Positions 26,531 through 64,000 of a DNA stretch of 64,000 nucleotides are shown here, piece after piece. The stretch is from Hysterangium stoloniferum. Lineage: Eukaryota > Basidiomycota > Agaricomycetes > Hysterangiales > Hysterangiaceae. The notes beneath the pieces are model-generated. The model saw nothing but the letters and a program-made list of their open reading frames with translations. It was not told where the DNA came from and made no database searches. Numbering within the stretch: position 1 is the first letter of the stretch; the number at the start of each line of letters is the position of its first letter. Both the position numbers and the translations under genes were made by a program. The DNA lies in NCBI GenBank assembly GCA_015178975.1, contig WHVD01000016.1, positions 1,015,346-1,079,345 on the forward strand, in the 5' to 3' direction.

Positions 26531-27687
26531 GTTCCTCCCAGTGTTTCCAGCCTTGTTTTGTCTGGCTTATGTGAACCGTCTTATTTATCCTCACCGCTAT
26601 GCCATCACTTTTATTGTTTTGGTTTTGTTTTATGATCATATTTCTTGGATCGTCTTTTTGTCTGCGGATTTCAGATCTGGTCTCAATCGATTTTTACATC
26701 AATAAATGATGTTTGATCGGCGCGTCTGGCTCTGTGGTAAGTTTTTGCCTACATATTTTAGTTTATAAACTGAAGTCGGTCTCTCAATAGCTTATCAACC
26801 CCTCATATGGTTACATGATTGCATGCGGCAGCGATATTGTGGATATCGCCGCCCGATCATTTAGTGTTTCTTACGGTGAGCTCAATCAGTTGCATTGCAT
26901 CGTCGGCAGTATTTGATTCATATTTCCACAAAAGGATAATTCCTTTTGATATCTCATTTGAGTATTAGCTGAATTTATCCATGGACGCTATTTTGCATGC
27001 CTGTCGCCGTTTGCGGAGTGCAGTGATATCTGTAAAGGTACACTGCCTGATCGTTGGTAGAGCTTTTCGGTAAGCCAAAAATATGATATTGTTTCCGGTT
27101 GGTTCACATCTTTTTGATACAGGTTCCGTCGATTGTGACCATTTGTTATCCGTACCCTTTCTTCCCTTATCATTTTGATTGTCGTCCCATCTGTGCTTTC
27201 GTGTCCTTTCCTTGTAAACTAGCGTTTATTGAGCATATATTTTCAAAATAAAAGTTTTGAGTCTGGATTCCTGTCCCAATTCGGGGCGCGGTAGTAGTAT
27301 TAAACTCGAACTCCACTTGTGAGGCACCCGACGGAGTGCAATCAAGAGCCCAAATGGGGTACTGGCCTTATTTGGAAAACGTCTATGGTAAGTGGGGTCA
27401 GCTATAGCATACCTAGAGCGCCTAGACCATATAGTTACAATTAGTGTAGGATAGTCGAACCGGGCTAGTGAACTAGTTGATTGTTAAATGAAGTCACTGA
27501 GCTGGCTATCTCGCCCAAGGAGCTAGCGGATTGGAATTCCATTTCCTGATCATGATAGGGGAGAATTTGGCACGAAGGATTGATGCTTTCAACCTCGCGT
27601 TACAACGTCTGGTTGTTGTACAAATGGTATTAATTTGAGTAAAAATTCAATAGTATTATATGAACACATAATATCAATAGCCGCGTC

Positions 27688-27797
27688 TACGGTGTCCCAA
27701 CTGTATCAGGTCTATTTTCTTTTTGAATTTTGAATTTTGAATTTAGGTTTGAGATTAGCGCTAGTGCCATGGGGATACGTCAGCCCCACGCTTGCCG
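27688..27797 (+). repeat. Left terminal inverted repeat of the alpha-kinase element
   Basis: The first 60 or so bases match the right end closely. Further inward only blocks match (gagattagcg, gtcagccc, ccgttttgggtaag), spread over about 110 bp. A short gaattttgaattttgaatt run lies inside. Confidence 0.85.
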
Positions 27798-28093
27798 TTT
27801 TGGGTAAGCCAGCCATTCCCAGCCAGGTCGAGTTCAACGAAAAGAACCTGTACACTGGTCAGGTCCCCCCCCCGGTGTAGATCCATATGTCCCACTGCAC
27901 TCACTGCCATTAAATACATGAAACACATTACTGCAGTAACTGTAATTTGGCAGTTTCAAATAAAATTAGGGAATTTACTAGTACTTTCTACAAAATTCGG
28001 AGCCTAAAAATTAAATTATGTGATAGTAAATATATATGTAATTTGTAGGACTTCCTCTAAAATATTGACAGCCTATCTGTTAATCTGCTTGCT

Positions 28094-30606
28094 ATGCCTC
28101 ATTGTTCAGGCTGTTCTAAAAAGTTTCCTAATCTCGAAGAGAAAGTCTTGTGTGGTCGATGTTACAAACTTGATCAAAAACCTTCTGAACCCGAAAAAAA
28201 AATTATACTAGTGAGTTCAGTACTAATCATTTATGAGATTAATAAATGATAGAAAAAAAACAGGCAAAGCCACAATGTGATGGATGTGGTGTAATTTATG
28301 CATTTTTGACTGAACCCATTTGTGGTTTTTGTGTAGATAAAGCAGACAAAAGTGTGTTTCTTCCGAGAATTATTTGCATTGTTCAATGAGCTTATAAATT
28401 TTAGGGCCCCATTTATCTGAAGGTATGTTCTCATACTATATTATGCAACACTGTTGAATTTGCCATTTACTGATAGATATAGGTGATCTTGCAGAATTCC
28501 TGACTCAGCGTACATTAGACTTTGAAAAGACTGCATCAAAGCATTGTTTGCATAAGCCACTGCCCCCAAATGATAGCCTTCTCAAAGGATATGAAGTGCG
28601 CGAGAAGACTCCGGCTTTGAAAAAGCAAAACAAAGGGGAAATAATTAATATTAGATATTCACTTGCTCAGATTATCCCAGGCAAAAATAAACCTGTACAG
28701 GTTTGTATATTTAGTTGTATTTTTCATATTAAGATTAAATAATTGTCTGGTGACTGCAGATTTCACTACCAATGCAGAAAGAGCCTTTTGATGTACAGGA
28801 TGATGCTAATGAAGTTATTGACAAAATCCTGTCAAATGGGAAAAATTATTATGATCACTACACTAACTGTGATATTAAATTGATATGATATTATTTATAC
28901 ATGAAAAAACTCCACTAATTTATTGTGTAGGGAAAGAGTTATTTTCATTGTTGTAAATGGAACAAACTTGCAGGACGATAACTTTGTGGATGTTGATGTG
29001 ATAAAGCTTGGGGGGAAAAGCATTGGTGAATGGCGGACAGATCTAATAAATTGAGACTTCCTTTCAGTTAAAGATGTCAAGAAAAATGATCTCACACTTC
29101 AATTACGATTGCATGAAGATGTGCCCATAGTGAGTCATTGTGATTGAATTGCAGTTACAGTTATATTTATATAAATCACAGATCAGTGACGAAGAGCTAA
29201 ATACTAGTGGTAGAATGGATAATAATAAGAAAATAACTAGAGAAAATGGTATTAGAAGCCTTGGAGCGAAGCATAAGAATGCCTCTTCCGAAAAGGGTCA
29301 GTTTTGAATTTTTACATATATTTGTATATTTTATTATGCTTATAAATTAATCTAAAGAAGCAGGTACAACAGATAATACATGGCCTAACAAATGTTATAC
29401 CAGTGCATATGTTAGCCACTATGCAACTGTAAATGTGGTATACATGGCCTATAAATTCCAAAGGATTAAAGTATCAGTCAATCCATGTACTTGTGATGTT
29501 GAGATTACAGAAAGTGACGACATGGAGACAGTTCTTGTACAGAAGAATTGGCGAGAGCACATAGGATGTGGTGGACGGAGGGGTGGATATTTGGGCTATG
29601 GACTTTATAAATATGCTTTTGAGGTATGCTTAAAACATACATATCATATGGTGTGATATATAACAGTTTCTTTCATTCACAGGGAAAAATCCAAGAAAAA
29701 GATTTTGCACTCTTCGAGTGGAAGGAAGTTTGTTGCCAGTTCAACGAGGAGAATTTCAACAAGTTGGGATCAGAATTGGTGCGTTTAGCCTGGGGTGAAT
29801 ACTTTGCTGAGTCATTCAACGAACGGATTAGATCTAGCAGTGTCAAAAATATACCCAGTGAGTTAAATTCTCAACAATAATAAATTAAAGTTAATCTTTA
29901 ATGGTTTAAATTACAGTGCTTAGGTGGAATACAAAGGATACTTTCATTGGGAAATTGGTAGATGAAGTAAAAGACGCTACAGATTCATCTCAAAATTCTA
30001 GCCTGGTTGAGCCCAGTATACGATGGAATGCATTCCTGGCAGCACCATTGCTACCCAAGCCAACACGAGAGGCCAAATTCTCTGGGAATGAACAGGCTGG
30101 AAGTAACACAGATAGGCTTGGGATGTGTGTTGATGCTTTTGCCCATCACACTGTGATTGATTCTGTTGGCGAGTTTTTATTTGCTGACTTGCAAGGTAAG
30201 TCCTAATGTAATTCAAAATGATTGTTATTCACCACTGAATTTGTAGGATTTATCTATGGAAATAATATGGTGGTCCTATTTGACCCTCAAGCACACAGGT
30301 ACATATGTTCCAATAGTCTTATCAATAGATATACTAATATGATTCTGAAGTTTTGATCAAACAAGCGGTCCATGGGATAAAGGTGCCCACACTATCCAGA
30401 ATTTCCTCAATACACACAAATGCAATGATATTTGTCATAGCATTGGGCTTGATAATATCCGTGTCAAAGTCCCTCCTCCCCAGAAAAGGGATATGGATTG
30501 TCATAGAGTTGGTACAACATGCCCTCAAGGCTCATCTACCTTTGAAAAGCTTATCTCCCCTGTGTATGAGGAAGCTGTGCAACAGGCAGCCATTGATCTT
30601 GATTGA
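28094..30606 (+). CDS. Zinc-ribbon alpha-type protein kinase
   Basis: About 13 exons give roughly 610 residues. Exons 1 and 2 each encode a CxxC...CxxC zinc-ribbon-like unit (CSGC...CGRC and CDGC...CGFC). The alpha-kinase domain occupies the C-terminal half. It has a Gly-rich GCGGRRGGYLGYGLYKYAFE stretch (29570-29622), the FADLQG and LFDPQAHT segments (about 30175-30298) and the zinc-binding THKCNDICHSIGL (about 30414-30453). Alpha-kinases are atypical Ser/Thr kinases that phosphorylate helical substrates. Most introns are clear and in phase. The junction between about 28873 and 28932 does not join cleanly in frame, so either my model is wrong there or the copy is damaged. It sits inside a TIR element, convergent with an integrase gene. 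The substrate is unknown. Confidence 0.8.
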
Positions 30607-30776
30607 TTGAACAGAATTTTAGCTATTTTCTTGATCTTCAAAACATAAAACTTAACTCCCATTTACAACATCTATTAGAATACACATTTATAATAAAAGT
30701 AGTTCTGATTTTTTCTTTTTAATAATTACATGTGTGGCAACATTGCCTCAAAAATGGCCCAGACATTGTGCAGATT

Positions 30777-32316
30777 TTACTCTTTGACATGTAATGTCTC
30801 ATATACTTTGGCTGCATGCTTTTCATATTCAACACTCACAAACCACAAAAGGTTCTCCCCTCCTAGCTCTTCCTTCAACTGACAGACTATATCCCGATCT
30901 ACAGGCTGCAAGAGATTCTCAGCACCAAGATCTTTATATGTAGTGAGTGCAACGTTAGGTGACATCCCAGATGGCAGAATCTTATGCTTGTCCTTCCGAA
31001 CCCGATGGTTATTAAACCGGTCCCGTAACTGGTCCAGCTCCTGTTGAATGAGCTTTGGCCATAACCAGCATACCAATTCACTGTGATGTATCAGTACTAA
31101 TAGTAATATTATGAAGGGGAAATGACTTACTGGTGGTGTACATCCATTGGATTATAAATGCCTTCACCAGCTTCCCAATGCACTTTCACGTTGTTGCCCC
31201 ACTTGAGATGAAGTTGTAGCCATCCACGCTCAATAGTTGTGTTGTGTACTGATTTTAAGAAATGATGTGCAGGGAGGCCGTCTACACACAACTTGGGTGA
31301 AAATATCTCCCTAGGAATGATCAAACATCAGTAGAAAAGTATAAGATAAAGATAGATATTACAGTACCTTAAAGTATTTGCGATACCAAAGACTCTGCCA
31401 GTCTCGCTCCCACAGTCTGTTGTTGTCTGAACAGGCATACCTGTATTCACTCAGTACCAGGAAGGTCAAAAGGCAAAAGACTTACCACCCATCTTCTCAA
31501 TCAAGCTTAGATATAAATATGCGATGGCTATCTTCAAGCGATTGTTTGGGAGCACCCAAATCCCCAACCATGCCCCTGACCATACATCTCGTATTGCCCA
31601 AAGTGGGAAACCGATTGCCGCTAGTTTATCATGACCATTCCCACTCCATTCTTGATGAGGGCCTAATAGGATGAGCGGCGAACAGTTTATTTTTCTCATG
31701 CCAGGTTGTCTAATCACAAAGCTGGCTGGGTCTTGAGGTTGCATAGTTGATGTAACAAAACTCCTAAGAATAGTTATCAATTAAAAACATGAAGTGAATC
31801 ACAATGTATGTACTTACCTTGTCAAGTTAATCCCAGTCCTTGCAGCGATTGCTTCCTTCACCACCTGTGGTCCTTGTTGACTTGTAGGATCCTGAGCCAT
31901 TTGGTCGAGAACAAGCTGCCGCTTCACAGTATTTGGAAGACACTTTGTTGTAGCCCCACTACCTTGTAAGCCAAGCTGAGTACGATGGCGAGCAATAGTT
32001 GCTTCACTAATAAAAGTAAAAACTGAGGATCAAAAATATAGAGCATGAAATAAATAGACATACCTTATCTGGATCCCATGCTCTGCAAGAAATAGCTTGC
32101 TGAGTTCTTTACGGTTGGTAATGCCATGTCGGTGGTATTCAATAATACATTGCTTTATGTTTTCATCATCAGAGGATGCTATGAGTAGTTATTTGAAAGA
32201 AAAAAAATTAACAGTGATTATATCACAAAGACAGTGGAAGATAACTCACGGCAGTGCCTGTATTGATTGGATCCCATAGGATTGCGATTGTAGTGCATGC
32301 TAGGCTGAGATTGCAT
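30777..32316 (-). CDS. rve-type integrase (putative transposase)
   Basis: About seven exons in minus order: start at 32316 (MQSQPSMHYNRN), an HTH-like region (EYHRHGITNRKELSKLFLAE ... SEATIARHRTQLGL, 32180-31980), then the catalytic core. Core motifs are GPHQEWSGNGHDKL with the probable first Asp (about 31680), FPLWAIRDVWSGAWLGIWVL, TTDCGSET with the second Asp (about 31425), and VHNTTIERGW with the Glu (about 31235), 42 residues after the second Asp. The C-terminus ends HVKE at 30777. This D,D,E layout with the WSG strand is that of retroviral-type integrases. All frames join in this copy, so it may be functional. The intergenic gap to the kinase stop is about 170 nt. Confidence 0.82.
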
Positions 32317-32339
32317 AGATTTGGTATCTGGAATCACCA

Positions 32340-32585
32340 GTGATATTGAGCAGCGGCAATGATGATAGTGAGCAGTGGCGGAGATGATAGTGAGGGGCCA
32401 CGATGGCAATATTGGACAGCGGCAGTGATGGTGCAGTGGTGGAGATGATAGTAATGGGCCACGATGGCAATATTGGATGGTGGCAGTAATGATAGTGAGC
32501 AGCAGTGGAGATGATAGTGAGGGGCCACAACGGCAATATTGGACAGTGGCAGCAAGAGCGACAATGATAGTGAGTGATGATGAGG
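32340..32585 (-). repeat. Subterminal minisatellite of the alpha-kinase element
   Basis: About three units of 80-90 bp containing gagatgatagtgaggggcca and ggcaatattggacagtggcag. It lies between the right TIR and the integrase start codon, the position of promoter and transposase-binding sites in many DNA transposons. Confidence 0.8.
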
Positions 32586-32627
32586 AGCAATAGTTGTGAA
32601 GACTTACCCAAAACGGGCAGTTAGGGC

Positions 32628-32737
32628 TGACCGTACCATAGCTGACACATCTGCTTGGCACTCTTGAAACGCTAATCTCGAACCCCAAATTCAAAATTCA
32701 AAAGAGAAAATAGACCTCATACAGTTGGGACACTGTA
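32628..32737 (-). repeat. Right terminal inverted repeat of the alpha-kinase element
   Basis: Reverse complement starts TACAGTGTCCCAACTGTAT and matches 27688 onward. Confidence 0.85.
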
Positions 32738-32743
32738 CGTGTC

Positions 32744-34259
32744 TACTGATTCCAATGTACCATGTCAGGCCGATTCCTCTTTTGACAGTGGTGACACTGC
32801 ATTGGTGAATGATGAGAGGAATTATGAACAGCAAGCCGCAGAAGGTACTAATTCGGCTTTCTTTTCATTACTAACATTTGCGTTCCATATAGAAAAATTG
32901 ATTCCGGCATCTGCACCACTCACTGTTGACAAGAGACCTGAAACACTGATAAGATAGCCTCTATTCACCTCTATCCAAGAGACAGCAACAAATTCACATG
33001 TCAACAGGTCTGACGATGGGCAGAAGTCTATTCTGTAGGTATCCTTTGTGCCCAAATTTCATAGTCACCATCTTATCACGTTTCAGTGTTGGGGATCCCG
33101 TAAAAGCCACGGATTTGTTCCTGAATAAATGGAGACTCCTGTGAGTCGACATATGTATAGCTCTCCATTAGCATGGCGCTAATGCACACAAGCAGCAGCT
33201 TGACTCCCTCCAGCCTGTCGACAACTCTTCTGTGGTCTCTATTACCAAAATTGAAGAGCCCTCGGATTAGATGGCCCATCCTGAGTGGGCATTCCTTCCA
33301 TTTGATTATTTTGTCATTGCCATATCTCATTTCGTGCAGGCTCCCATCCGAGCAGAAAATTCAGGATGAGAAAGATAGGCATGGGAAGGACAAGGTCACT
33401 TTTCCGGCTAGTTTTGAGGAAATTGTGAGTGAAATTTTACATAGCCGTTCATGACCATGTTATTAATGTGCCCATACAGAAAAGGATCAGGAATGGAAGC
33501 CAAAACTCCGGCTTTGTATTACCGACCACTTCCTCAGCCGAGCAGGCTGCTACGCACTTCACTGGAAGAAGGCGTAGAAATATGAGGCATGTCAGTGGCA
33601 CTCTCCCCAAAACACACCCTCCTTTGGACCTTTCAGCCTTGGTAAGTGACTTTAATAAGGCTTTCTCCCAAAACTTAGAAAAATTGATTTCTGTAAAAAA
33701 ATATAGACTTCTCAGCCCGACACAGCTTTGCTGAAGACACTTTCAAGGGTATTAGAATAGGAGAAATAGGACTGAGAACTCAAAGGGGGTAATTGTAAGT
33801 GGACCCTCTGTCACAGACCCCAAAAAACACTGTCATTTCTTTCAAACCATGGTTCCTCATATTATTGAATCCCCTGAGTCCACAGTCCAACCCCTTACCT
33901 TTTGAGTCTTGCCATCCCTTTCCAGACCTTCTGGCCTCCTTCCAGGCATCCCTATCCATTCCCCTCCCCTTCCCTCTCCTTGTGGATATCAACTATTCCT
34001 GCTAATACCTTAGATAAGTAAGTGGCTAACTCCAGAGGCTGGTGGCATTAGTGTTCCTTTGTGGAAAGAGTCCTTGTTCTGTGTTAGGTAGAGTTATTTT
34101 TAGACTACTGGGTGCCTATGGGTCACACCTCACAGGGGGATTCCTTAGACAGTTACATGTCAGGGGCACTGCAGGCAGTGCTACCATGAGCAGGGGTACT
34201 GATAGTGGGATGACAGATGGGTAACAAGGCTAAAGTGGCCTGCAGTGGTTCCAAAATGG
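32744..34259. other. Unclassified stretch with possible exons
   Basis: Plus-strand exon-like pieces with good GT...AG borders occur: 33360-33423, 33480-33642, and 33706 onward ending in a stop near 33756. A minus-strand 84-codon ORF at 33330-33076 is equally plausible as a coding piece. I recognise neither. From 33780 to 34259 there is no gene I can support. The copy in the right arm is the same apart from one homopolymer length. Confidence 0.3.
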
Positions 34260-36010
34260 TTGGGATCCTAACACACCACCATCTTGGGCATGTGAACTAT
34301 AAATAAATTAGTAACATGCTCAACAATGGCTCCATCAAAGATGTGCAGTCCAATCCTACCTGCCCATCCTCAAATGCAACTAATGTATCCTTGGAAAACA
34401 GACAAAATCATCCATTCCAAAAATACATCAGGAGGCAGAGGGGCATACATAAAGCAATGAGGAAACCTGAGAAAAAATGGGTAGATTTAACAGGACTGGA
34501 AGCTGTGATGTGTCACAGTGGAAACAACTACATCATGAACATAGTTGACAATTATACAAGTTTCATTTGGACAATACCATTAAAAAAAAAAATGATGCAT
34601 TTCCATAACTCCAACATTGGGAAAAAGCTAGGAAAATTGAAACAGGACTCAAAATCAGAATATATTGCACTGATAATGATGAACTGAAGAGTCATGAAAT
34701 GACAGATTGGCTGGCATCCAGAGGTACTCAACAGCAGTTTATGGCAACCCTACACATCTGTACACATTGGATGAATAGACTGCATGCATAGAACACTTAT
34801 GGGGAAGGCTTGCTCAATGTGTATCTATCCTAATTTACCATCATACTTGTGGGGTGAATTTTACAGTACCTCACAGCCACTCATCTACATGTTAAAATGA
34901 CCACTGCTTCCCTCAATGGCATAATCCTATGGGACCTTTGTATGGTTGACTACCTGACTACTCTTACATGCAAGAAATTGGATATCATCCTTTTTTTCTC
35001 ATTCAAAATACAGTAAATACAAAAGTCTATGAGCATTCAATTGAATGTGACCTTATTTGTTATGATGCAAACTCTAAAATACCAAACATCAAGCCAAATC
35101 TATAGTTCTTACTATGTCCAATTTCTGGAAAGCCATGATGGACATTGCCAGATTCCCAATTCTGAACTTAATGTTCATGCCGATGATACCCCCAATCTAT
35201 CAACTAAGTCTGCTTCATCTGATATTTACTCTCCCAGTCTTCCTGCTGAACTCCTTACTAAATCTTCTCCAATCCTACCTCAATCCAGGCAACCTCCTGT
35301 TTCAATCCCAATGGTTGATCCATCTCCCCTTCAACATTCTAATTGTACAGCTGCTGAACCATCTGTTTCCACTGCACAGCTTGAACATGCTATCCAAGAA
35401 TCCAAGGATTGTGCTGAGAAAATACAATTTCAGAAACAAGAACACTTGCCATGAATTGCCAAACTGCATGATACTGTCATGACATTCGCAACATCAAACA
35501 CCAGATCATGATGAGTTGCAACAAGCCCTCTCATTGATCCAGTCTGCATATTAACCAATACTAACATACATACCTTAATGGCAATTCAGATACTTTTGGA
35601 GTTGATCCATTGACATGTAAATGCGGAACTGCAGACATGGGCTGAGGCTCTCCAATCAGGTGATGGTGAGCTGGATTCCAGGATGAACTAGACTCTCTTA
35701 AGACTATGGGGGTCTATAAGCTTGTACCTCAACCTGAAGTTCCTCAGGGGTGTAAAATACACAAGGACAACCTGTTTTCTGAATCAAAAGGGATGAGACC
35801 AGCAAGGCATTTTGGTGGAAGGTATACTTAGTCTTCAAAGGCTTTGAGCAAATTTATGGCAAGGACTACCATAAAACAACCTCACCTACAGCAAACATGG
35901 AATCCTGGTGCATTTCGCTTCATATTGGTGCCACTCTAGAATGGGATGCACAAAAAATTGACATTAAAACCACATTTCTTTATGGATTGTTATCTGAGGA
36001 TGAAGTACAA
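34260..36010 (+). pseudogene. Ty1/copia pol remnant (left arm)
   Basis: In order: a GAG-pre-integrase HLGHVNYK (about 34267); integrase core text SGNNYIMNIVDNYTSFIWTI (34510-34575) and SHEMTDWLASRGTQQQF (34690-34740); the chromatin-side part MSIQLNVTLFVMM...SSYYVQFLESHDG (35029-35150); a Ser/Pro-rich linker; and an RVT_2 start (MGVYKLVPQPEVPQG about 35705, then QIYGKDYHKTTSPTANMESW, then WDAQKIDIKTTFLYGLLSED up to 36000). Many stops and frameshifts are present. A Tc1 element interrupts reverse transcriptase at TA 36011-36012. The catalytic YxDD end is not present. Confidence 0.8.
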
Positions 36011-36012
36011 TA

Positions 36013-36995
36013 CAGTGACTTACAAAACATATCCAATGTTTTGCAGTTTCAACTTGTATAGCTTATACCCCAGTAGATAAAATTGTAAAAGTCACTGTAA
36101 TATTTGCCAACATACTTTATCATGTATAATCCAAGACACCATAATGTCTTTATGTAATATCCATATATGGTAACAATATGAATATTTTAATAGAGAGGGG
36201 TCATTGGATACCTTTTGTCACTGACAGGCTTTTGGCAGGAAATTACTTATATTTAGTACTTGGTATAGCCACACTTTGCCTTTAATACATCTGCAACCCT
36301 CCTAGGCATACTTTCAATCAAATCCTGGCACACCTTTGCATCAACCTTGTACCATTCCTCCACCACCCTCTCCCACCTCTCCCAAAGCTCTTCCATCCCC
36401 TGGGGTGCATTATCATATCCTGCCAACCTCCTCTTCAGGTGATTCCATAAGTGTTCAATGGGATTCAGGTCAGGAGACTGTGCTGGCCATGAGAGAACCC
36501 TGAAACCATTTTCTTGAAACCAATTCTGGGCCTTCTTGCAGGTATGCTTGGGGTCATTATCCTGCTGGAAGATGACATCATCTGCAGATTTACCATAATC
36601 CCTGAGGTTGGCTTGCAAATCATGCTCCAGAATCTGTATGTAGAGATCCCCATCCATCCTTCCATCAATCCTGCATGCATAACCCCCCCAGCCTGTCACT
36701 CAAGTCCTCCCCTGCCTTTTTCCACACCCACTTCCTACCATCTGACCCCAGCCTATTGATTCTTGTCTCATCAGACCACACCACCTTCTTCCAGTCCTCC
36801 ACAGTCCAATCCTGATGTGCCAAAGCAAAGTCCATCCTCTCCTTCCTATGCTTCTTAGAAAGAAGAGGCCTTTTCTTCTTGACCACAGGCTTTATCCCAG
36901 CTGCCTTGAGTCCACAACATACTGTTTGAGGATTGAGTGACTGGTTGGTGATAGTGCAAAGTGCCTTTGTTGCATCTACAGCTGTATCAGCCTTC
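36013..36995 (-). pseudogene. Truncated Tc1-type transposase (left arm)
   Basis: The terminal repeat starts CAGTGACTTACAAAACATAT after the TA. The minus-strand frames encode VVWSDETRINRLG (first Asp), FQQDNDPKHT (second Asp) and PDLNPIEHLW (Glu), the DD34E order of Tc1. A deletion plus frameshift near 36690 removes the KFGGGSLMIWG-like segment seen in the element at 48995. The N-terminal HTH and other end are cut off at 36995 by the junction to copy D. Confidence 0.9.
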
Positions 36996-48776: not shown

Positions 48777-50241
48777 ATAAGCATGACATCATAGCTTTCC
48801 TTATCAGGGAAGTAGGAAATGAACAATGGACATGGTGCATCTGGACATTTTTTTTGCTCTGTCAACTGATACATGAAACTCAACTAAGGTTCATATAACT
48901 GTGGGAATTTCTGGTTAGGTTCAACAATGTCATGTGACCACATGTTTAAATAACACATTTACATGAACCTTTGCCTCAATTCACCCCCCATCACATGATG
49001 AAGAAGCACTCTACTGAAACAAGGCTCTCTGTCATTTCTCTTCCCCAGGAGGGTCACTCCTGCAGAACAATTGCTTCTAAACTTCATATTGGGCACTCTA
49101 CAGTATCAGAAATTTGCTCCCAACTTCCTGGTCCACTTCCAACACCTTCCAGAGGTTGTCCTCCCAAACTCTCCCCAGGGATCATCACCACCTGGCTCAT
49201 TCTATCACCTCTGGACAGGTTGATAATGCCTCCCAAGCCAAGTCCCACCTCTCCCTCAATGTCTGCACACAGACAATTAGAAATGCATTGAAGAAAGAGA
49301 ATTTGAAGGCTGTGGTGAAGGCCAAAAGACCTCTTTTTGCCTGTCAACACATCAAGGCTCGATATGAGTTTGCTATCAAGTACCAGCATTGGACTGAGGA
49401 GGACTGGTTTAGGGTCATCTTCTCAGATGAGACCAAAATCAATCATTTGGGCTCTGATGGGAGGTTGTGGGTATGGAAAAGACCAGGTTCTGCACTCACT
49501 CAGCAGCATATCAATGGAACTATCAAATTTGGAGGGGGGAGTCTAATGATTTGGGGATGTATGACAGCACATGGTGTGGGGTACATGTGCAAGATAGATG
49601 GGAGGATGGATGGGGAGATGTACAAGGACATATTGGAGGACTATATCTTCAAAACAGTGGAGTATTATGGGATGGACAGGGAAAGGTTTGTCTTCCAGCA
49701 GGACAATGACCCTAAACAGACTTGCAAGTTGGCCAAGGATTGGTTCAAGGACCATCAGGTGGAGGTTTTAGACTTGCCTGCACAGTATCCAGACCTGAAT
49801 CCAATAGAACACTTATGGTGGGAGTTGAAGAGAAGGCTTGGAACATACCCTGAGACACCCAAGAGCATATTGGAGCTCTGGGAGAGAGTGGAGGTGGAAT
49901 GGGAGGGTATTCCAAGGGAGAAATGCCTTGAATTGATCAAGAGCATGCCTAGAAGGGTTGCTGCAGTACTAAAGGCCAAGAGGGGGTACACTAAATACTG
50001 AAACTGGTAAAAACTAGTAATTAATTACAAGAGCAAAAAAAGTGTCCGGATGCACCATGTCCATTATTAATTTCCTACTTTCCTGATAAGGAAAGCTATG
50101 ATGTCATGCTTATGTCATCATGTAGGTCAGATATATACCTCTTACCTCTGATTTATTCAGAATTCTATCTATTTTATTTCTGGAGCTGTAAACCCATCTT
50201 TCCAATTTCACCAAACATCCGGACGCTTTTTTGGGTCACTG
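48777..50241 (+). mobile_element. Tc1-type transposon, left end missing
   Basis: The right end reads ...CGGACGCTTTTTTGGGTCACTG next to TA (50242-50243), as Tc1-type ends do. An inverted subterminal repeat of about 85 bp (ataagcatgacatcatag...) is present at 48777 and again, reversed, near 50110. The outer left terminus is replaced by the LTR ending at 48776. It was inserted in gypsy pol. Confidence 0.85.
48995..50001 (+). pseudogene. Tc1-type DD34E transposase with one frameshift
   Basis: The N-terminal HTH (STETRLSVISLPQEGHS ... IGHSTVSEICSQL) is in one frame. After a one-base shift near 49175 the frame continues through FSDETKINHLG (first Asp, about 49425), KFGGGSLMIWGCM, FQQDNDPKQT (second Asp, about 49700) and PDLNPIEHLW (Glu, about 49800), with 34 residues between the last two. 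It ends RGYTKY at 50001. Apart from the shift it is full length, about 335 residues. ATG at 48998 is equally likely as the start. Confidence 0.9.
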
Positions 50242-50249
50242 TAGCTTCT

Positions 50250-52418
50250 CAATATCCATAATGATAATTCCACAGACAATGTGATGTATGAGGAAAGTTG
50301 CACAGACTCATGCAGTAAGTTGCTGATTTGTCAAAATAGGTTTCAAGTTGTGCAGGTTTACTGTGGCATAGTCATTGCTCCCCTCTTTAGGATAGACATC
50401 CCATCATCTAGTTAAAGTGTCAGGTTTGCCACCGAGGTGACCAGGTCGAAAGTGGATAATCATATTGAAAGCTGATAGGTATTCAGACCAGTGGGCCTGC
50501 CAATGGGTCAAAGGTTTTGTAGTAGAAATGTATTCCAGGTTTTTATGATCTGTTACAACATCAATCGGAATTCCTGAGCCTTCCAAATAGTGTCACCACA
50601 TTTTGAAAGCTGAAAAAATTGCTAGGAGTTCCTTATCATGAATGTCATAATTGAGCTCTGCTCCGATGAAAGTGTGGGACAGAAAAGCCACAGGGTGGAC
50701 TTCTCCATCAGAGTCCTGGATAGACAAAATGGCTCCAAGTGCATAGTCCAAGGCATCCATTTCAACAATGAGTGGGAAGTCCAGTTTCCAGTGCAACAGA
50801 ATTGGATCTGAAGAAAAAGAATCTTTTGAAAGATTGAAAGCTTTTTGACACTTATCATTAAAATTCTGCAGAGTATCCTTGCACGTAAGATGGGTAAGGG
50901 GAACCGTGATTTCAGAATATCCACAGATAAACCGTCAGGAAAAATTGGCAAAGCCGAGGAAAGATTGTATATCTTTAACTTTTCTGGGTTCAGGCCAATC
51001 TTTGATGACTTGTACTTTAGTTTCATCCATGTGGAGTCTGCCGGGTCCCATTATGAAGCCCAGGTATTCCACGGAGTCAATGTCAAAAGTACAATTTTTA
51101 CCATTCATGAATAAACCATGTTGTGTGAGTCTCTGGAGAACTTCATGGACTTGTTTGTCATGTTCTGCAGAGTCCTCCGAATAGATAAGAATGTCATCCA
51201 AGTAAACAATGATGCATACATTGAGCATGTCAGAGAAAATGTCATTGATAAAATGTTGAAAAACAGACAGAGCATTGGTGAGTCCAAAGGGCATCACCAA
51301 CCACTCAAAGGCCCCATAACAGGTTCTGAAAGTAGTTTTCCATTCATCTCCCACAGAGATCCAGACCAAATGGTAGGCATGTTTAAGGTCTATTTTGGTA
51401 TAAATCTGGGCATTCCGTGGAGCATCGAGCAGGTCAGATATAAGTGGGAGTGGATACTTATCCTTTTTTGTGACAGCATTGAGTCCTCTGAAATCATCAC
51501 ATAGTCTAAGGGATCCATCCTTCTTTTTGACAAACAGAATAGGTGTTCCAAAAGGAGACTTAGAGGGTCTGATAAAACCTATGGACAAATGTTCATCCAG
51601 GAAATCCCAGATTGTGGAAAGTTACATGGACGAAAGCGGGTAAATATGTCCAAGGGGTGGCTGGGCACCTTCTTTGAGGTCAATTTTCAAGTCATACTCT
51701 CTGTGGGGGTGGAAGCCGGTCAGCTTTTCACTCACCAAAAACATCTGCAAAGTTGTGATATTTCTCCAGGACACCTTCTAGATCAGGGGTTTGCTCAGAT
51801 GCAGATACCAGAGTTGAGAAATGACCAGTTGCTTCATCAATTTTTAAATTGATAGTGAATGCCTGGGACCCATCCATTTTTGTCACCCTAATAAATGCTG
51901 CAGCATTAATGAGAGAAAGAGACAGAGGTGCCGTGGGTTCCAGGGAAGCCATAGGTGCCATAGGGATCACAGGAGTCCTCGAGACTGCAGGTGCCAGGAA
52001 GGCCATGGGTGCTGTGGAGGCCATGTTGGGTACAGTTTTCTCGGAAGCTGCAGGTGTCCAGACAGTTATGCTGTTTGCTACCCAGTCAATCAATGGATTG
52101 TAGCAGGTAAGCCAGTTATGTATGTCCTAGGACAACTGAGCAACTTGAGTCTAACTGGGTCACATAGAAAGTGACCAACTGAGATGTTCCACACAGGAAA
52201 CAGATGGATAAATTGCAAGCTTGGGTGATAACCAAATTGCTTGTGCCATCAAAAAGTCGGAGGCCAACTGGGTTTATCAGATAAGTTGACAACAGATTAT
52301 TTTGCATGAATTTTGTATCTAAAAAATAATGAGTGGAGCCAGAATCTATGAGTGCTGAAAAAACAAATTTCAGAATCATATTAGACCTAAGTTTAATAAA
52401 AAATGAGTCAGAGTTCAA
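50250..52418 (-). pseudogene. Gypsy protease, reverse transcriptase and RNase H
   Basis: Protease: SALIDSGSTHYFLD with the DSG triad (about 52355). Reverse transcriptase: [20 protein letters not shown] (51530-51470), [19 protein letters not shown] and the YLDD catalytic box in [13 protein letters not shown] (about 51205). RNase H: EMDALDYALGAIL (50760), DHKNLEYIS and [15 protein letters not shown] (about 50440). Frameshifts lie near 51728 and around 51000-50940. TGA stops follow KMW (about 50592) and LTR (about 50402), at positions where Arg is usual. A Tc1 insertion cuts the frame at 50242. Confidence 0.88.
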
Positions 52419-55442: not shown

Positions 55443-56615
55443 AAGAGATCCTTTCTCTACTTGATGCTGGCCATTCTGCCAAACATATTTCAGTTTCCAC
55501 TGGATATAGCTTTGCTACTATCTCTAGACTTCAGTCTAAACATTGCTCCCACCTTTCTAAGTCCTCTGGTGGTCGTCCTTCCAAACTCTCTACAGCCAAT
55601 ATCCATTTTGCACAATGTCTTATCAGCTCTGGGAAGGCTGATACAGCTGTAGATGCAACAAAGGCACTTTGCACTATCACCAACCAGTCACTCAATCCTC
55701 AAACAGTATGTTGTGGACTCAAGGCAGCTGGGATAAAGCCTGTGGTCAAGAAGAAAAGGCCTCTTCTTTCTAAGAAGCATAGGAAGGAGAGGATGGACTT
55801 TGCTTTGGCACATCAGGATTGGACTGTGGAGGACTGGAAGAAGGTGGTGTGGTCTGATGAGACAAGAATCAATAGGCTGGGGTCAGATGGTAGGAAGTGG
55901 GTGTGGAAAAAGGCAGGGGAGGACTTGAGTGACAGGCTGGGGGGGTTATGCATGCAGGATTGATGGAAGGATGGATGGGGATCTCTACATACAGATTCTG
56001 GAGCATGATTTGCAAGCCAACCTCAGGGATTATGGTAAATCTGCAGATGATGTCATCTTCCAGCAGGATAATGACCCCAAGCATACCTGCAAGAAGGCCC
56101 AGAATTGGTTTCAAGAAAATGGTTTCAGGGTTCTCTCATGGCCAGCACAGTCTCCTGACCTGAATCCCATTGAACACTTATGGAATCACCTGAAGAGGAG
56201 GTTGGCAGGATATGATAATGCACCCCAGGGGATGGAAGAGCTTTGGGAGAGGTGGGAGAGGGTGGTGGAGGAATGGTACAAGGTTGATGCAAAGGTGTGC
56301 CAGGATTTGATTGAAAGTATGCCTAGGAGGGTTGCAGATGTATTAAAGGCAAAGTGTGGCTATACCAAGTACTAAATATAAGTAATTTCCTGCCAAAAGC
56401 CTGTCAGTGACAAAAGGTATCCAATGACCCCTCTCTATTAAAATATTCATATTGTTACCATATATGGATATTACATAAAGACATTATGGTGTCTTGGATT
56501 ATACATGATAAAGTATGTTGGCAAATATTACAGTGACTTTTACAATTTTATCTACTGGGGTATAAGCTATACAAGTTGAAACTGCAAAACATTGGATATG
56601 TTTTGTAAGTCACTG
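55443..56615 (+). pseudogene. Tc1-type transposase, nearly full (right arm)
   Basis: It starts inside the HTH (EILSLLDAGHSAKHISVSTG), continues through SKSSGGRPSKLST, and shares DETRINRLG, FQQDNDPKHT and PDLNPIEHLW with the left-arm copy, ending KCGYTKY at 56375. The same internal deletion near 55940 breaks the frame. The right end CACTG meets TA at 56616-56617. It carries about 190 bp of N-terminal sequence that the left arm lacks. Confidence 0.9.
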
Positions 56616-56617
56616 TA

Positions 56618-58368
56618 TTGTACTTCATCCTCAGATAACAATCCATAAAGAAATGTGGTTTTAATGTCAATTTTTTGTGCATCCCATTCTAGAGTGGCAC
56701 CAATATGAAGCGAAATGCACCAGGATTCCATGTTTGCTGTAGGTGAGGTTGTTTTATGGTAGTCCTTGCCATAAATTTGCTCAAAGCCTTTGAAGACTAA
56801 GTATACCTTCCACCAAAATGCCTTGCTGGTCTCATCCCTTTTGATTCAGAAAACAGGTTGTCCTTGTGTATTTTACACCCCTGAGGAACTTCAGGTTGAG
56901 GTACAAGCTTATAGACCCCCATAGTCTTAAGAGAGTCTAGTTCATCCTGGAATCCAGCTCACCATCACCTGATTGGAGAGCCTCAGCCCATGTCTGCAGT
57001 TCCGCATTTACATGTCAATGGATCAACTCCAAAAGTATCTGAATTGCCATTAAGGTATGTATGTTAGTATTGGTTAATATGCAGACTGGATCAATGAGAG
57101 GGCTTGTTGCAACTCATCATGATCTGGTGTTTGATGTTGCGAATGTCATGACAGTATCATGCAGTTTGGCAATTCATGGCAAGTGTTCTTGTTTCTGAAA
57201 TTGTATTTTCTCAGCACAATCCTTGGATTCTTGGATAGCATGTTCAAGCTGTGCAGTGGAAACAGATGGTTCAGCAGCTGTACAATTAGAATGTTGAAGG
57301 GGAGATGGATCAACCATTGGGATTGAAACAGGAGGTTGCCTGGATTGAGGTAGGATTGGAGAAGATTTAGTAAGGAGTTCAGCAGGAAGACTGGGAGAGT
57401 AAATATCAGATGAAGCAGACTTAGTTGATAGATTGGGGGTATCATCGGCATGAACATTAAGTTCAGAATTGGGAATCTGGCAATGTCCATCATGGCTTTC
57501 CAGAAATTGGACATAGTAAGAACTATAGATTTGGCTTGATGTTTGGTATTTTAGAGTTTGCATCATAACAAATAAGGTCACATTCAATTGAATGCTCATA
57601 GACTTTTGTATTTACTGTATTTTGAATGAGAAAAAAAGGATGATATCCAATTTCTTGCATGTAAGAGTAGTCAGGTAGTCAACCATACAAAGGTCCCATA
57701 GGATTATGCCATTGAGGGAAGCAGTGGTCATTTTAACATGTAGATGAGTGGCTGTGAGGTACTGTAAAATTCACCCCACAAGTATGATGGTAAATTAGGA
57801 TAGATACACATTGAGCAAGCCTTCCCCATAAGTGTTCTATGCATGCAGTCTATTCATCCAATGTGTACAGATGTGTAGGGTTGCCATAAACTGCTGTTGA
57901 GTACCTCTGGATGCCAGCCAATCTGTCATTTCATGACTCTTCAGTTCATCATTATCAGTGCAATATATTCTGATTTTGAGTCCTGTTTCAATTTTCCTAG
58001 CTTTTTCCCAATGTTGGAGTTATGGAAATGCATCATTTTTTTTTTTAATGGTATTGTCCAAATGAAACTTGTATAATTGTCAACTATGTTCATGATGTAG
58101 TTGTTTCCACTGTGACACATCACAGCTTCCAGTCCTGTTAAATCTACCCATTTTTTCTCAGGTTTCCTCATTGCTTTATGTATGCCCCTCTGCCTCCTGA
58201 TGTATTTTTGGAATGGATGATTTTGTCTGTTTTCCAAGGATACATTAGTTGCATTTGAGGATGGGCAGGTAGGATTGGACTGCACATCTTTGATGGAGCC
58301 ATTGTTGAGCATGTTACTAATTTATTTATAGTTCACATGCCCAAGATGGTGGTGTGTTAGGATCCCAA
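56618..58368 (-). pseudogene. Ty1/copia pol remnant (right arm)
   Basis: Mirror copy of 34260-36010 with the same stops and the same Tc1 insertion site in the RVT_2 start. The ORFs at 58312-57941 and 57599-57174 encode the same proteins as in the left arm. Confidence 0.8.
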
Positions 58369-59883: not shown

Positions 59884-60310
59884 GACACGTACAGTGTCCC
59901 AACTGTATGAGGTCTATTTTCTCTTTTGAATTTTGAATTTGGGGTTCGAGATTAGCGTTTCAAGAGTGCCAAGCAGATGTGTCAGCTATGGTACGGTCAG
60001 CCCTAACTGCCCGTTTTGGGTAAGTCTTCACAACTATTGCTCCTCATCATCACTCACTATCATTGTCGCTCTTGCTGCCACTGTCCAATATTGCCGTTGT
60101 GGCCCCTCACTATCATCTCCACTGCTGCTCACTATCATTACTGCCACCATCCAATATTGCCATCGTGGCCCATTACTATCATCTCCACCACTGCACCATC
60201 ACTGCCGCTGTCCAATATTGCCATCGTGGCCCCTCACTATCATCTCCGCCACTGCTCACTATCATCATTGCCGCTGCTCAATATCACTGGTGATTCCAGA
60301 TACCAAATCT

Positions 60311-61845
60311 ATGCAATCTCAGCCTAGCATGCACTACAATCGCAATCCTATGGGATCCAATCAATACAGGCACTGCCGTGAGTTATCTTCCACTGTCTTT
60401 GTGATATAATCACTGTTAATTTTTTTCTTTCAAATAACTACTCATAGCATCCTCTGATGATGAAAACATAAAGCAATGTATTATTGAATACCACCGACAT
60501 GGCATTACCAACCGTAAAGAACTCAGCAAGCTATTTCTTGCAGAGCATGGGATCCAGATAAGGTATGTCTATTTATTTCATGCTCTATATTTTTGATCCT
60601 CAGTTTTTACTTTTATTAGTGAAGCAACTATTGCTCGCCATCGTACTCAGCTTGGCTTACAAGGTAGTGGGCTACAACAAAGTGTCTTCCAAATACTGTG
60701 AAGCGGCAGCTTGTTCTCGACCAAATGGCTCAGGATCCTACAAGTCAACAAGGACCACAGGTGGTGAAGGAAGCAATCGCTGCAAGGACTGGGATTAACT
60801 TGACAAGGTAAGTACATACATTGTGATTCACTTCATGTTTTTAATTGATAACTATTCTTAGGAGTTTTGTTACATCAACTATGCAACCTCAAGACCCAGC
60901 CAGCTTTGTGATTAGACAACCTGGCATGAGAAAAATAAACTGTTCGCCGCTCATCCTATTAGGCCCTCATCAAGAATGGAGTGGGAATGGTCATGATAAA
61001 CTAGCGGCAATCGGTTTCCCACTTTGGGCAATACGAGATGTATGGTCAGGGCATGGTTGGGGATTTGGGTGCTCCCAAACAATCGCTTGAAGATAGCCAT
61101 CGCATATTTATATCTAAGCTTGATTGAGAAGATGGGTGGTAAGTCTTTTGCCTTTTGACCTTCCTGGTACTGAGTGAATACAGGTATGCCTGTTCAGACA
61201 ACAACAGACTGTGGGAGCGAGACTGGCAGAGTCTTTGGTATCGCAAATACTTTAAGGTACTGTAATAATCTATCTTTATCTTATACTTTTCTACTGATGT
61301 TTGATCATTCCTAGGGAGATATTTTCACCCAAGTTGTGTGTAGACGGCCTCCCTGCACATCATTTCTTAAAATCAGTACACAACACAACTATTGAGCGTG
61401 GATGGCTACAACTTCATCTCAAGTGGGGCAACAACGTGAAAGTGCATTGGAAGCTGGTGAAGGCATTTATAATCCAATGGATGTACACCACCAGTAAGTC
61501 ATTTCCCCTTCATAATATTACTATTAGTACTGATACATCACAGTGAATTGGTATGCTGGTTATGGCCAAAGCTCATTCAACAGGAGCTGGACCAGTTACG
61601 GGACCGGTTTAATACCATCGGGTTCGGAAGGACAAGCATAAGATTCTGCCATCTGGGATGTCACCTAACGTTGCACTCACTACATATAAAGATCTTGGTG
61701 CTGAGAATCTCTTGCAGCCTGTAGATCGGGATATAGTCTGTCAGTTGAAGGAAGAGCTAGGAGGGAGAACCTTTTGTGGTTTGTGAGTGTTGAATATGAA
61801 AAGCATGCAGCCAAAGTATATGAGACATTACATGTCAAAGAGTAA
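60311..61845 (+). pseudogene. rve integrase, frameshifted copy
   Basis: Same exons as 32316-30777, but with at least five one-base losses: near 60668 (GGGG to GGG), 61049 (GGGG to GGG), 61450 (GGG to GG), 61615 (AA to A) and 61764 (GGGG to GGG). As written it cannot give a full protein. These may be read or assembly errors rather than real mutations. Confidence 0.75.
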
Positions 61846-62015
61846 AATCTGCACAATGTCTGGGCCATTTTTGAGGCAATGTTGCCACACATGTAATTAT
61901 TAAAAAGAAAAAATCAGAACTACTTTTATTATAAATGTGTATTCTAATAGATGTTGTAAATGGGAGTTAAGTTTTATGTTTTGAAGATCAAGAAAATAGC
62001 TAAAATTCTGTTCAA

Positions 62016-64000
62016 TCAATCAAGATCAATGGCTGCCTGTTGCACAGCTTCCTCATACACAGGGGAGATAAGCTTTTCAAAGGTAGATGAGCCTTGAGGG
62101 CATGTTGTACCAACTCTATGACAATCCATATCCCTTTTCTGGGGAGGAGGGACTTTGACACGGATATTATCAAGCCCAATGCTATGACAAATATCATTGC
62201 ATTTGTGTGTATTGAGGAAATTCTGGATAGTGTGGGCACCTTTATCCCATGGACCGCTTGTTTGATCAAAACTTCAGAATCATATTAGTATATCTATTGA
62301 TAAGACTATTGGAACATATGTACCTGTGTGCTTGAGGGTCAAATAGGACCACCATATTATTTCCATAGATAAATCCTACAAATTCAGTGGTGAATAACAA
62401 TCATTTTGAATTACATTAGGACTTACCTTGCAAGTCAGCAAATAAAAAACTCGCCAACAGAATCAATCACAGTGTGATGGGCAAAAGCATCAACACACAT
62501 CCCAAGCCTATCTGTGTTACTTCCAGCCTGTTCATTCCCAGAGAATTTGGCCTCTCGTGTTGGCTTGGGTAGCAATGGTGCTGCCAGGAATGCATTCCAT
62601 CGTATACTGGCTCAACCAGGCTAGAATTTTGAGATGAATCTGTAGCGTCTTTTACTTCATCTACCAATTTCCCAATGAAAGTATCCTTTGTATTCCACCT
62701 AAGCACTGTAATTTAAACCATTAAAGATTAACTTTAATTTATTATTGTTGAGAATTTAACTCACTGGGTATATTTTTGACACTGCTAGATCTAATCCGTT
62801 CGTTGAATGACTCAGCAAAGTATTCACCCCAGGCTAAACGCACCAATTCTGATCCCAACTTGTTGAAAATTCTCCTCGTTGAACTGGCAACAAACTTCCT
62901 TCCACTCGAAGAGTGCAAAATCTTTTTCTTGGATTTTTCCCTGTGAATGAAAGAAACTGTTATATATCACACCATATGATATGTATGTTTTAAGCATACC
63001 TCAAAAGCATATTTATAAAGTCCATAGCCCAAATATCCACCCCTCCGTCCACCACATCCTATGTGCTCTCGCAATTCTTCTGTACAAGAACTGTCTCCAT
63101 GTCGTCACTTTCTGTAATCTCAACATCACAAGTACATGGATTGACTGATACTTTAATCCTTTGGAATTTATAGGCCATGTATACCACATTTACAGTTGCA
63201 TAGTGGCTAACATATGCACTGGTATAACATTTGTTAGGCCATGTATTATCTGTTGTACCTGCTTCTTTAGATTAATTTATAAGCATAATAAAATATACAA
63301 ATATATGTAAAAATTCAAAAACTGACCCTTTTCGGAAGAGGCATTCTTATGCTTCGCTCCAAGGCTTCTAATACCATTTTCTCTAGTTATTTTCTTATTA
63401 TTATCCATTCTACCACTAGTATTTAGCTCTTCGTCACTGATCTGTGATTTATATAAATATAACTGTAACTGCAATTCAATCACAATGACTCACTATGGCA
63501 CATCTTCATGCAATCGTAATTGAAGTGTGAGATCATTTTCTTGACATCTTTAACTGAAAGGAAGTCTCAATTTATTAGATCTGTCCGCCATTCACCAATG
63601 CTTTTCCCCCAAGCTTTATCACATCAACATCCACAAATTATCGTCCTGCAAGTTTGTTCCATTTACAACAATGAAAATAACTCTTTCCCTACACACAATA
63701 AATTAGTGGAGTTTTTCATGTATAAATAATATCATATCAATTTAATATCACAGTTAGTGTAGTGATCATAATAATTTTTCCCATTTGACAGGATTTTGTC
63801 AATAACTTCATTAGCATCATCCTGTACATCAAAAGGCTCTTTCTGCATTGGTAGTGAAATCTGCAGTCACCAGACAATTATTTAATCTTAATATGAAAAA
63901 TACAACTAAATATACAAACCTGTACAGGTTTATTTTTGCCTGGGATAATCTGAGCAAGTGAATATCTAATATTAATTATTTCCCCTTTGTTTTGCTTTTT
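62016..64000 (-). pseudogene. Alpha-kinase, partial and frameshifted copy
   Basis: Mirror of 28094-30606 with its 5' part beyond the window. One-base length changes occur near 62448 (extra A), 62612 (C lost), 62868 (extra base) and 63072 (G lost, in KNWRE). The kinase motifs LFDPQAHT and HKCNDIC are still present. Confidence 0.75.

Follow-up and report, generated by a model that had tools for sequence, protein, structure and literature searches.

The IS3EU and GingerRoot transposons have been described with TA..TA termini, usually 6-bp target duplications and an IS3/IS481-like DDE transposase (accessible part of PMC10045372). The word "kinase" did not occur in the main text of that paper, as far as it was accessible. 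For fungal IS3EU, the accessible part of PMC12730594 (Kojima 2025) gives TAYGG..CCRTA termini and terminal inverted repeats (TIRs) longer than 30 bp. In the TET-bearing fungal members described there, the transposase and alpha-kinase genes lie in opposite orientations.

We analysed a 64,000-nt stretch of the Hysterangium stoloniferum genome, referred to here as the window. The element within it is probably a degraded copy of a cut-and-paste DNA transposon of the IS3EU superfamily. This membership is the most likely assignment, judged from the termini and the layout in comparison with the published descriptions of IS3EU. The features of the element are listed in Table 1. As the initial annotation had claimed, two convergent spliced genes lie inside the ends, the kinase on the plus strand and the transposase on the minus strand.

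Table 1. Positions of the element features in the window.
Feature	Positions	Strand	Remarks
Left target-site duplication, CGCGTC	27682..27687	.	One mismatch to the right copy
Left terminal inverted repeat, start TACGGTGTCCCAACTGTAT	27688..27739	+	Arm comparison, 19-mer matches
Alpha-kinase gene, about 12 exons	28094..30606	+	Exons joined by hand; N-terminal CxxC pairs
Alpha-kinase domain region	29396..30603	+	Motifs ADLQ, LFDPQAH, HKCNDIC
PF24764 (rva_4) DDE transposase gene, 7 exons	30777..32316	-	Exons joined by hand; convergent with the kinase gene
Degenerate direct repeats, 61-66 bp spacing	32343..32552	.	Between transposase start and right end
Right terminal inverted repeat, inward TACAGTGTCCCAACTGTAT	32686..32737	-	Arm comparison, 19-mer matches
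Right target-site duplication, CGTGTC	32738..32743	.	Flank comparison
Second copy of the same element	59890..64000	-	Inverted and truncated

The two 52-nt arms showed 83% complementarity. A 19-mer of the TIR matched the window three times, against 0.04 in shuffled sequence (up to 3 mismatches), and the 111-Mb assembly 90 times, against 3 matches for the reversed pattern used as a control (up to 2 mismatches). These results bore out the inverted ends. The reading of the element as a TIR transposon whose transposase is of the rve type was likewise supported. TACGG formed the start of 37 of the 44 exact TIR matches, and TACAG that of the remaining 7; the window copy has TACGG at its left end and, read inward, TACAG at its right end. 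Its TIR (52 bp at 83%) and that of C146, an element of the second family discussed below (243 bp at 98%), both exceed 30 bp, as described for fungal IS3EU.

Target duplications were compared in 18 two-ended copies. Twelve had an exact duplication of 5 bp and two an exact duplication of 6 bp, while imperfect duplications were found in two copies at 5 bp and in two at 6 bp, the window copy among the latter. Mismatched flank pairs agreed by chance in only 2/306 cases at 5 bp and 1/306 at 6 bp. Three of the 18 copies (L015, L023 and L024) had an additional TIR; for these, the end pair was chosen by its matching flanks. Thus the 6-bp duplication initially proposed for the window copy was seen, with one mismatch, but the norm of the family is 5 bp. 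The second copy in the window lies within an 8.4-kb inverted duplication that reaches the contig end and is probably an assembly artefact.

The transposase of the window copy matched PF24764 with 31.2 bits (cut-off 26), which confirmed the integrase identity proposed at first. PF24764 was recognised in 17/17 members of alignment A1, and rve, HTH_32 and HTH_21 in 1/17 each. The predicted core resembled those of TnsB, IstA, Mu and retroviral integrases; overall, the TM-scores were low. An HHCC zinc domain ahead of the core, as in Ginger1 and retroviral-type integrases, was also sought, and no invariant or nearly invariant His or Cys preceded the first catalytic Asp in the 17 aligned transposases. 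The D,D(42)E core of the initial annotation held for the 42-residue spacing between the second Asp (codon start 31417) and the Glu (31231). It did not hold for the first position, which is Asn in the window copy (AAT, 31639-31637, minus strand). The first Asp was present in 16/16 compared homologues and the complete triad in 15/16, the exception being P0073 with Asn at the second place. Because the first catalytic Asp is replaced by Asn, the window copy looks dead, and from its sequence it is very probably inactive.

The assignment of the other gene to the alpha-kinases was upheld by several comparisons. One exon of the window kinase matched PF02816 with 23 bits (cut-off 21.3), and 5/5 kinase homologues matched the same profile, P0003 reaching 56 bits. 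The C-lobe also matched solved alpha-kinases. Most intron borders in the window copy were GT..AG, with an ambiguous junction near 28867/28932, and a TGA at 29052-29054 is in frame in the gene as read by hand, unless it is intronic.

The two genes occurred together on opposite strands in 9/9 two-ended copies longer than 4.5 kb, two of which had partial deletions. The kinase was missing from all 9 shorter two-ended copies, and is therefore not needed in cis. A transposase match was also present in 18 of the 21 clusters with a kinase match. The initial annotation had named two kinds of locus that would speak against the pairing. For the first, integrase copies with the same TIRs and no kinase, none of the complete copies was two-ended with a full transposase and no kinase. 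The 29 transposase-only clusters do speak against the pairing; they were mostly fragments, and two of them, C535 with a full and C539 with a near-full transposase, had one TIR each and no kinase match in the stretch read. For the second, kinase genes at syntenic host loci without TIRs, there were three kinase-only clusters, all fragments. A PF24764 profile search of the genome gave no matches; this search misses the known copies, and it gave none in the control genomes either.

Some loci were set apart. C517 and C509 were rejected as independent insertions. Both have a truncated transposase and share their outer flank with C61 and C68:75k, which suggests that they were duplicated as part of a larger repeat. 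The 4- and 5-kb stretches read at C441 and C24 held, respectively, a transposase exon alone and a lone broken kinase.

The same genome contains a second, very divergent family with TATGG..CCATA termini. Its near-full transposase loci had the convergent kinase-transposase pair in 4/4 cases, and its transposase, assembled from hand-joined pieces, was homologous to that of the window family (hhalign E 1.3e-21). In C146, TATGG was found at both ends, and this one copy was flanked by an exact 6-bp target duplication. The C146 alpha-kinase had been considered as a host gene, but this was rejected, as the gene sits inside this second IS3EU-like element.

Between two subfamilies, the kinase gave dN/dS values of 0.16-0.21 and the transposase values of 0.11-0.15. 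The low kinase values indicate that the gene is kept by selection. In full-length elements the kinase is a long-standing part on which selection acts. Our preferred reading of its role, with chances of about even, is that it serves as a transposition helper. The kinase could instead be captured cargo that aids the host or the retention of the element, not transposition itself. Purifying selection is compatible with any useful function, and captured TET/JBP genes have also been described in other fungal DNA transposons (accessible part of PMC12730594). However, passive cargo would be expected to be lost or swapped more often, whereas the convergent pair recurs within this genome in two families that have diverged strongly, and is also described in TET-bearing rust IS3EU (same part of PMC12730594). 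In Termitomyces, relatives of the kinase and of the transposase carry consecutive gene tags. All four PF02816 matches in the H. stoloniferum genome, from an insensitive search, lay beside a transposase, with none at a locus lacking one. Captured cargo is therefore unlikely. Among public proteins, 162 transposase clusters were found against at least 10 clusters of the more divergent kinase, so many transposases may be without a kinase. Viral contigs contained no relatives of either protein.

Alpha-kinases have an ATP-anchoring lysine in the N-lobe. The N-lobe of the element kinase did not match solved alpha-kinases, and the PF02816 alignment of P0003 begins only at profile position 36. By eye, the window lineage seems to have a hydrophobic residue where this lysine would stand (alignment A5); C146 reads VIVK. 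The hydrophobic residue makes a pseudokinase possible, that is, a catalytically dead protein that would assist the transposase as a scaffold or by binding DNA, and whose CxxC pairs might contact nucleic acid or protein. The AlphaFold model (mean pLDDT 42.8) was too poor to place the lysine. On the other hand, the C-lobe motifs DLQ, DPQAH and HxCNxxC were retained in most copies and homologues, with departures in L010, L011, L012, L016, P0004, P0005 and P0127, and a dead fold would not need them. We regard a pseudokinase as improbable.

The initial annotation knew of no described superfamily with this layout. The layout is already mentioned in print, since TAYGG..CCRTA termini, TIRs longer than 30 bp and an opposite-strand alpha-kinase are given for fungal IS3EU, the paired genes in TET-bearing members (accessible part of PMC12730594). 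Although the duplications are mostly of 5 bp, and IS3EU was compared through its published description, a separate superfamily is very unlikely, given also the 6-bp duplication and the homologous transposase of the second family. What appears new, as far as our searches show, is the mushroom copies with no TET gene seen, the selection test and the second paired family. The reading for TET covers the window copy and sets aside the insertions carried by L012, L015 and L016. A Tet_JBP profile search found no matches in this genome, nor any in the control genomes. A chance placement of the kinase beside the transposase has a negligible probability and is refuted by the long two-ended copies, the second-family loci and the Termitomyces neighbours, which vindicates the initial view that the pairing is not accidental.

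The PF24764 IS3-like transposase would act on TAYGG-type termini and insert the element with staggered cuts of 5-6 bp, and intact copies would transpose. As a helper, the convergent kinase would work in trans as an accessory factor; it might phosphorylate the transposase or else a protein of the host's chromatin or silencing system, thereby raising or timing transposition. The kinase would then be active, with a target and a benefit to the element. A selected kinase inside a DNA transposon would also offer an unusual opportunity to learn how such an element regulates its own movement by phosphorylation, which is testable with purified proteins.

Alpha-kinases have been called "highly expanded in the rusts" (PMC4469406), and PF02816 was enriched 2.34-fold in wheat rusts compared with eight other basidiomycetes (Q 0.035; Table 3, PMC5295586). 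Neither paper, in its accessible part, states a link between these kinases and transposons. It is plausible that such elements explain alpha-kinase gene expansions, as the four PF02816 matches of the H. stoloniferum genome, all from the insensitive search, have a transposase next to them. More tentatively, the alpha-kinase may be a second subunit that fungal IS3EU acquired in ancient times and can hardly do without, and that phosphorylates the element's transposase or the host silencing machinery; most basidiomycete alpha-kinase genes, including the rust expansions, would then belong to transposons and not to host signalling. If rust alpha-kinases do ride on IS3EU, much of the "signalling" repertoire would be mobile DNA, and its annotation should say so.

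The element kinase shares the C-lobe DLQG and DPQ motifs and the HxCNxxC site with MHCK-A, ALPK1, TRPM7 and eEF2K. It differs from them in being transposon-borne, in its N-terminal CxxC pairs and in an N-lobe that is unrecognised by sequence. The window element resembles IS3EU and GingerRoot in general in its TA..TA termini and DDE transposase (accessible part of PMC10045372), whereas 5-bp duplications dominate in its family instead of the usual 6 bp. With the TET-bearing IS3EU of Pucciniales it has in common the TAYGG..CCRTA termini, a TIR of more than 30 bp and a kinase gene that runs opposite to the transposase gene. Those elements hold a TET/JBP gene between the pair (accessible part of PMC12730594), while in the window copy only about 0.2 kb separates the transposase and kinase genes.

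The 19-mer of the terminal inverted repeat (TIR) matched three times in the window (0.04 expected) and, with up to two mismatches, 90 times in the 111-Mb assembly, compared with three matches for a control pattern read backwards. Facing ends, paired up to a length limit of about 7.3 kb, gave 18 two-ended copies, namely the window element and 17 others. Target duplications were exact at 5 bp in 12 of these copies and at 6 bp in two, and were imperfect at 5 bp in two and at 6 bp in two, including the window element. Of 306 mismatched flank pairs, 2 agreed at 5 bp and 1 at 6 bp. Three of the 18 copies had an extra TIR, and the ends chosen were those with matching flanks. These mostly exact 5-bp matches indicated that the window family is a transposon family with a usual duplication of 5 bp. 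The TIR excess, the two-ended copies and the matching flanks thus verified the inverted-ended transposon of the initial annotation. Its 6-bp flank duplication is present, imperfectly, at the window element, but it is not the usual length in the family.

Features of the window and related loci. TIR, terminal inverted repeat.
Feature	Location	Strand	Size	Remarks
Transposon (window element)	27688-32737		5,050 bp	52-nt inverted ends, 83% complementary
Degenerate repeats	32343-32552			61-66-bp spacing, transposase start to right TIR
Inverted duplication	28620-36995 / 55633-64000		8.4 kb	0 mismatches, 19 indels (17 in one-base runs); reaches contig end exactly
Second element copy	59890-64000			Part of the inverted duplication
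Open frame	49081-50001	+	306 aa	Tc1/mariner-type transposase-like (by eye)
Frame	50935-51621	-		Gypsy-type reverse transcriptase fragment-like (by eye)
Second-family element	C146, 641479-647202			L033/L031/L032
Kinase P0001	C532 copy			NCBI protein, Hysterangium stoloniferum
Transposase P0090	C539			NCBI protein, Hysterangium stoloniferum

The gene on the minus strand codes for a PF24764 transposase, and this domain was found in all 17 members of the transposase alignment. There were 162 public relatives; the named ones among the best 120 are presumably all agaricomycete proteins, five of those rows being nameless. The structure model of the closest homologue (P0006) was confident (pLDDT 90), and its predicted core is similar to those of TnsB, IstA, Mu and retroviral integrases (best E 5.5e-6), with low overall TM-scores. 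The plus-strand gene has CxxC pairs near the N-terminus and an alpha-kinase domain (PF02816), which was matched in all five homologues scanned. Its homologues come from Hysterangium, Suillus, Gymnopilus, Tricholomella and Termitomyces. Over the C-lobe, the kinase-domain profile matched alpha-kinases of solved structure (4kuj, E 1.3e-10; also ALPK1, TRPM7, MHCK-A and eEF2K).

Both genes were matched in all nine two-ended copies longer than 4.5 kb (the window element and L009-L016), which bears out the proposed pairing of kinase and integrase. The kinase start is missing in L009, and the ends of both genes are missing in L011. The nine shorter two-ended copies (L017-L025) gave no kinase match, and six of them kept a 5' transposase remnant. 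Among the genome-wide matches listed, 18 clusters had both genes (the C180 cluster comprising two elements), 29 had the transposase only and three the kinase only; these counts come from rows typed in as a selection, which by eye covered every listed locus. The genes lay on opposite strands throughout in 17 of the 18 two-gene clusters among these matches, the exception being C431:553k, with transposase pieces on both strands. Many of the 29 transposase-only clusters, part of which were inspected, are fragments. C535 and C539 retain most of the transposase gene and gave no kinase match in the stretch read, with a single TIR each. Two truncated transposases with open exons, L029 (C517) and L030 (C509), have an identical outer flank, caagggcgag, which also lies beside the ends L006 and L007, so they apparently sit inside some larger repeat.

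A second family, with TATGG..CCATA ends, occurs in the same genome. Its type locus on contig C146 holds one of the four PF02816 matches of the genome inside 243-bp TIRs starting TATGG, with an exact 6-bp target duplication (GTTCCG) and convergent alpha-kinase and transposase genes. The transposase, with its pieces joined by hand, matched PF24764 (28.3 bits against a cut-off of 26) and the window-family transposase (hhalign E 1.3e-21). The kinases of the two families were barely alignable (probability 14%, E 0.0019). The C146 locus is a deeply diverged second element, IS3EU-like, and its end had 12 genome matches compared with one for the control. Near-full matches to its transposase, on C146, C53, C37 and C40, faced an opposite-strand kinase in all four cases, about 3 kb away on C37. 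A fifth kinase match of this family, on C24, is broken and stands alone within the 5 kb read. On C441, C17, C129 and C312 a single transposase exon was matched, and C441, the one of these four loci that was read, showed no kinase. All four PF02816 matches of the genome thus adjoin a transposase. That search ran exon by exon and missed most of the known kinase copies; the genome may hold further alpha-kinases that escaped it.

The pairing extends to other species. The transposase and kinase of Termitomyces sp. T32_za158 have consecutive tags (C0992_005461 and C0992_005462) on a 4,979-base contig, and both proteins of Gymnopilus junonius lie on a 290,224-base contig; we infer the same-contig placement in the two species. 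Together with Hysterangium C532, a transposase was a neighbour or on the same contig in all three clusters that could be checked, of at least ten kinase clusters.

The window integrase does not have the intact D,D(42)E core first read in it. Its first catalytic Asp is replaced by Asn; the Asp was kept in all 16 homologues compared and, leaving out the inverted duplicate, in each of the 10 other copies that were read. The second Asp is Asn in L012 and L014, and the Glu is also Asp in L012. The kinase gene has a TGA at 29052 in the window, L009, L010, L012 and L016; the equivalent codon is sense in L011, L013, L014 and L015, and Arg in the public C532 model. The TGA could be spliced out in the copies that bear it. 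The 8.4-kb inverted duplication is probably an assembly artefact.

Two subfamilies of the window family differ by 22-26% of nucleotides in aligned pieces. Codon comparison between them gave dN/dS values of 0.16-0.21 for the kinase (6/6 pairs) and 0.11-0.15 for the transposase (7/7 pairs), with bootstrap limits of 0.07 to 0.26; the pairs are non-independent, with one deep branch common to all, dS is high (0.75-0.88), and some of the copies are broken, with stop or gap codons excluded. The kinase values indicated purifying selection on the kinase during subfamily divergence. Within subfamilies, the values (kinase 0.39-0.70, transposase 0.32-1.28) were as expected of decaying copies.

Judging from its family, the transposase would cleave at the element ends by DDE chemistry and join them with a 5-6 bp stagger. 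For the kinase we favour the role of a trans-acting helper because of the selection on it, the recurring layout and the absence of the gene from short derivatives. The kinase might possibly act instead as a pseudokinase scaffold. Its N-lobe had no match in the profile comparison with solved structures. In the alignment of kinase homologues, read by eye, a hydrophobic residue occupies the position expected for the canonical ATP-binding lysine in the window lineage, as it might in a pseudokinase. The C146 kinase (L031) has VIVK there, also by eye. The scaffold is retained as an alternative to the helper, as the position of this lysine in the N-lobe could not be fixed. Captured cargo, as suggested initially, is less likely in view of the repeated layout.

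One report on IS3EU, the superfamily to which the window element most likely belongs, lists TA..TA termini and duplications that are usually 6 bp long (PMC10045372). TET/JBP-bearing IS3EU families from seven rust species are described with 6-bp duplications, TIRs longer than 30 bp and ends TAYGG..CCRTA, and in all of them TET/JBP lies between oppositely oriented transposase and alpha-kinase genes (PMC12730594). The initial statement that no described superfamily has this layout is therefore not supported. Among the open-access papers listed, judged by title and abstract start, no other was found on the transposase/alpha-kinase pairing, and Repbase may already contain such families. The window family differs from the usual IS3EU pattern in its mostly 5-bp duplications. 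With the TET-bearing rust elements it shares the placement of transposase and alpha-kinase on opposite strands.
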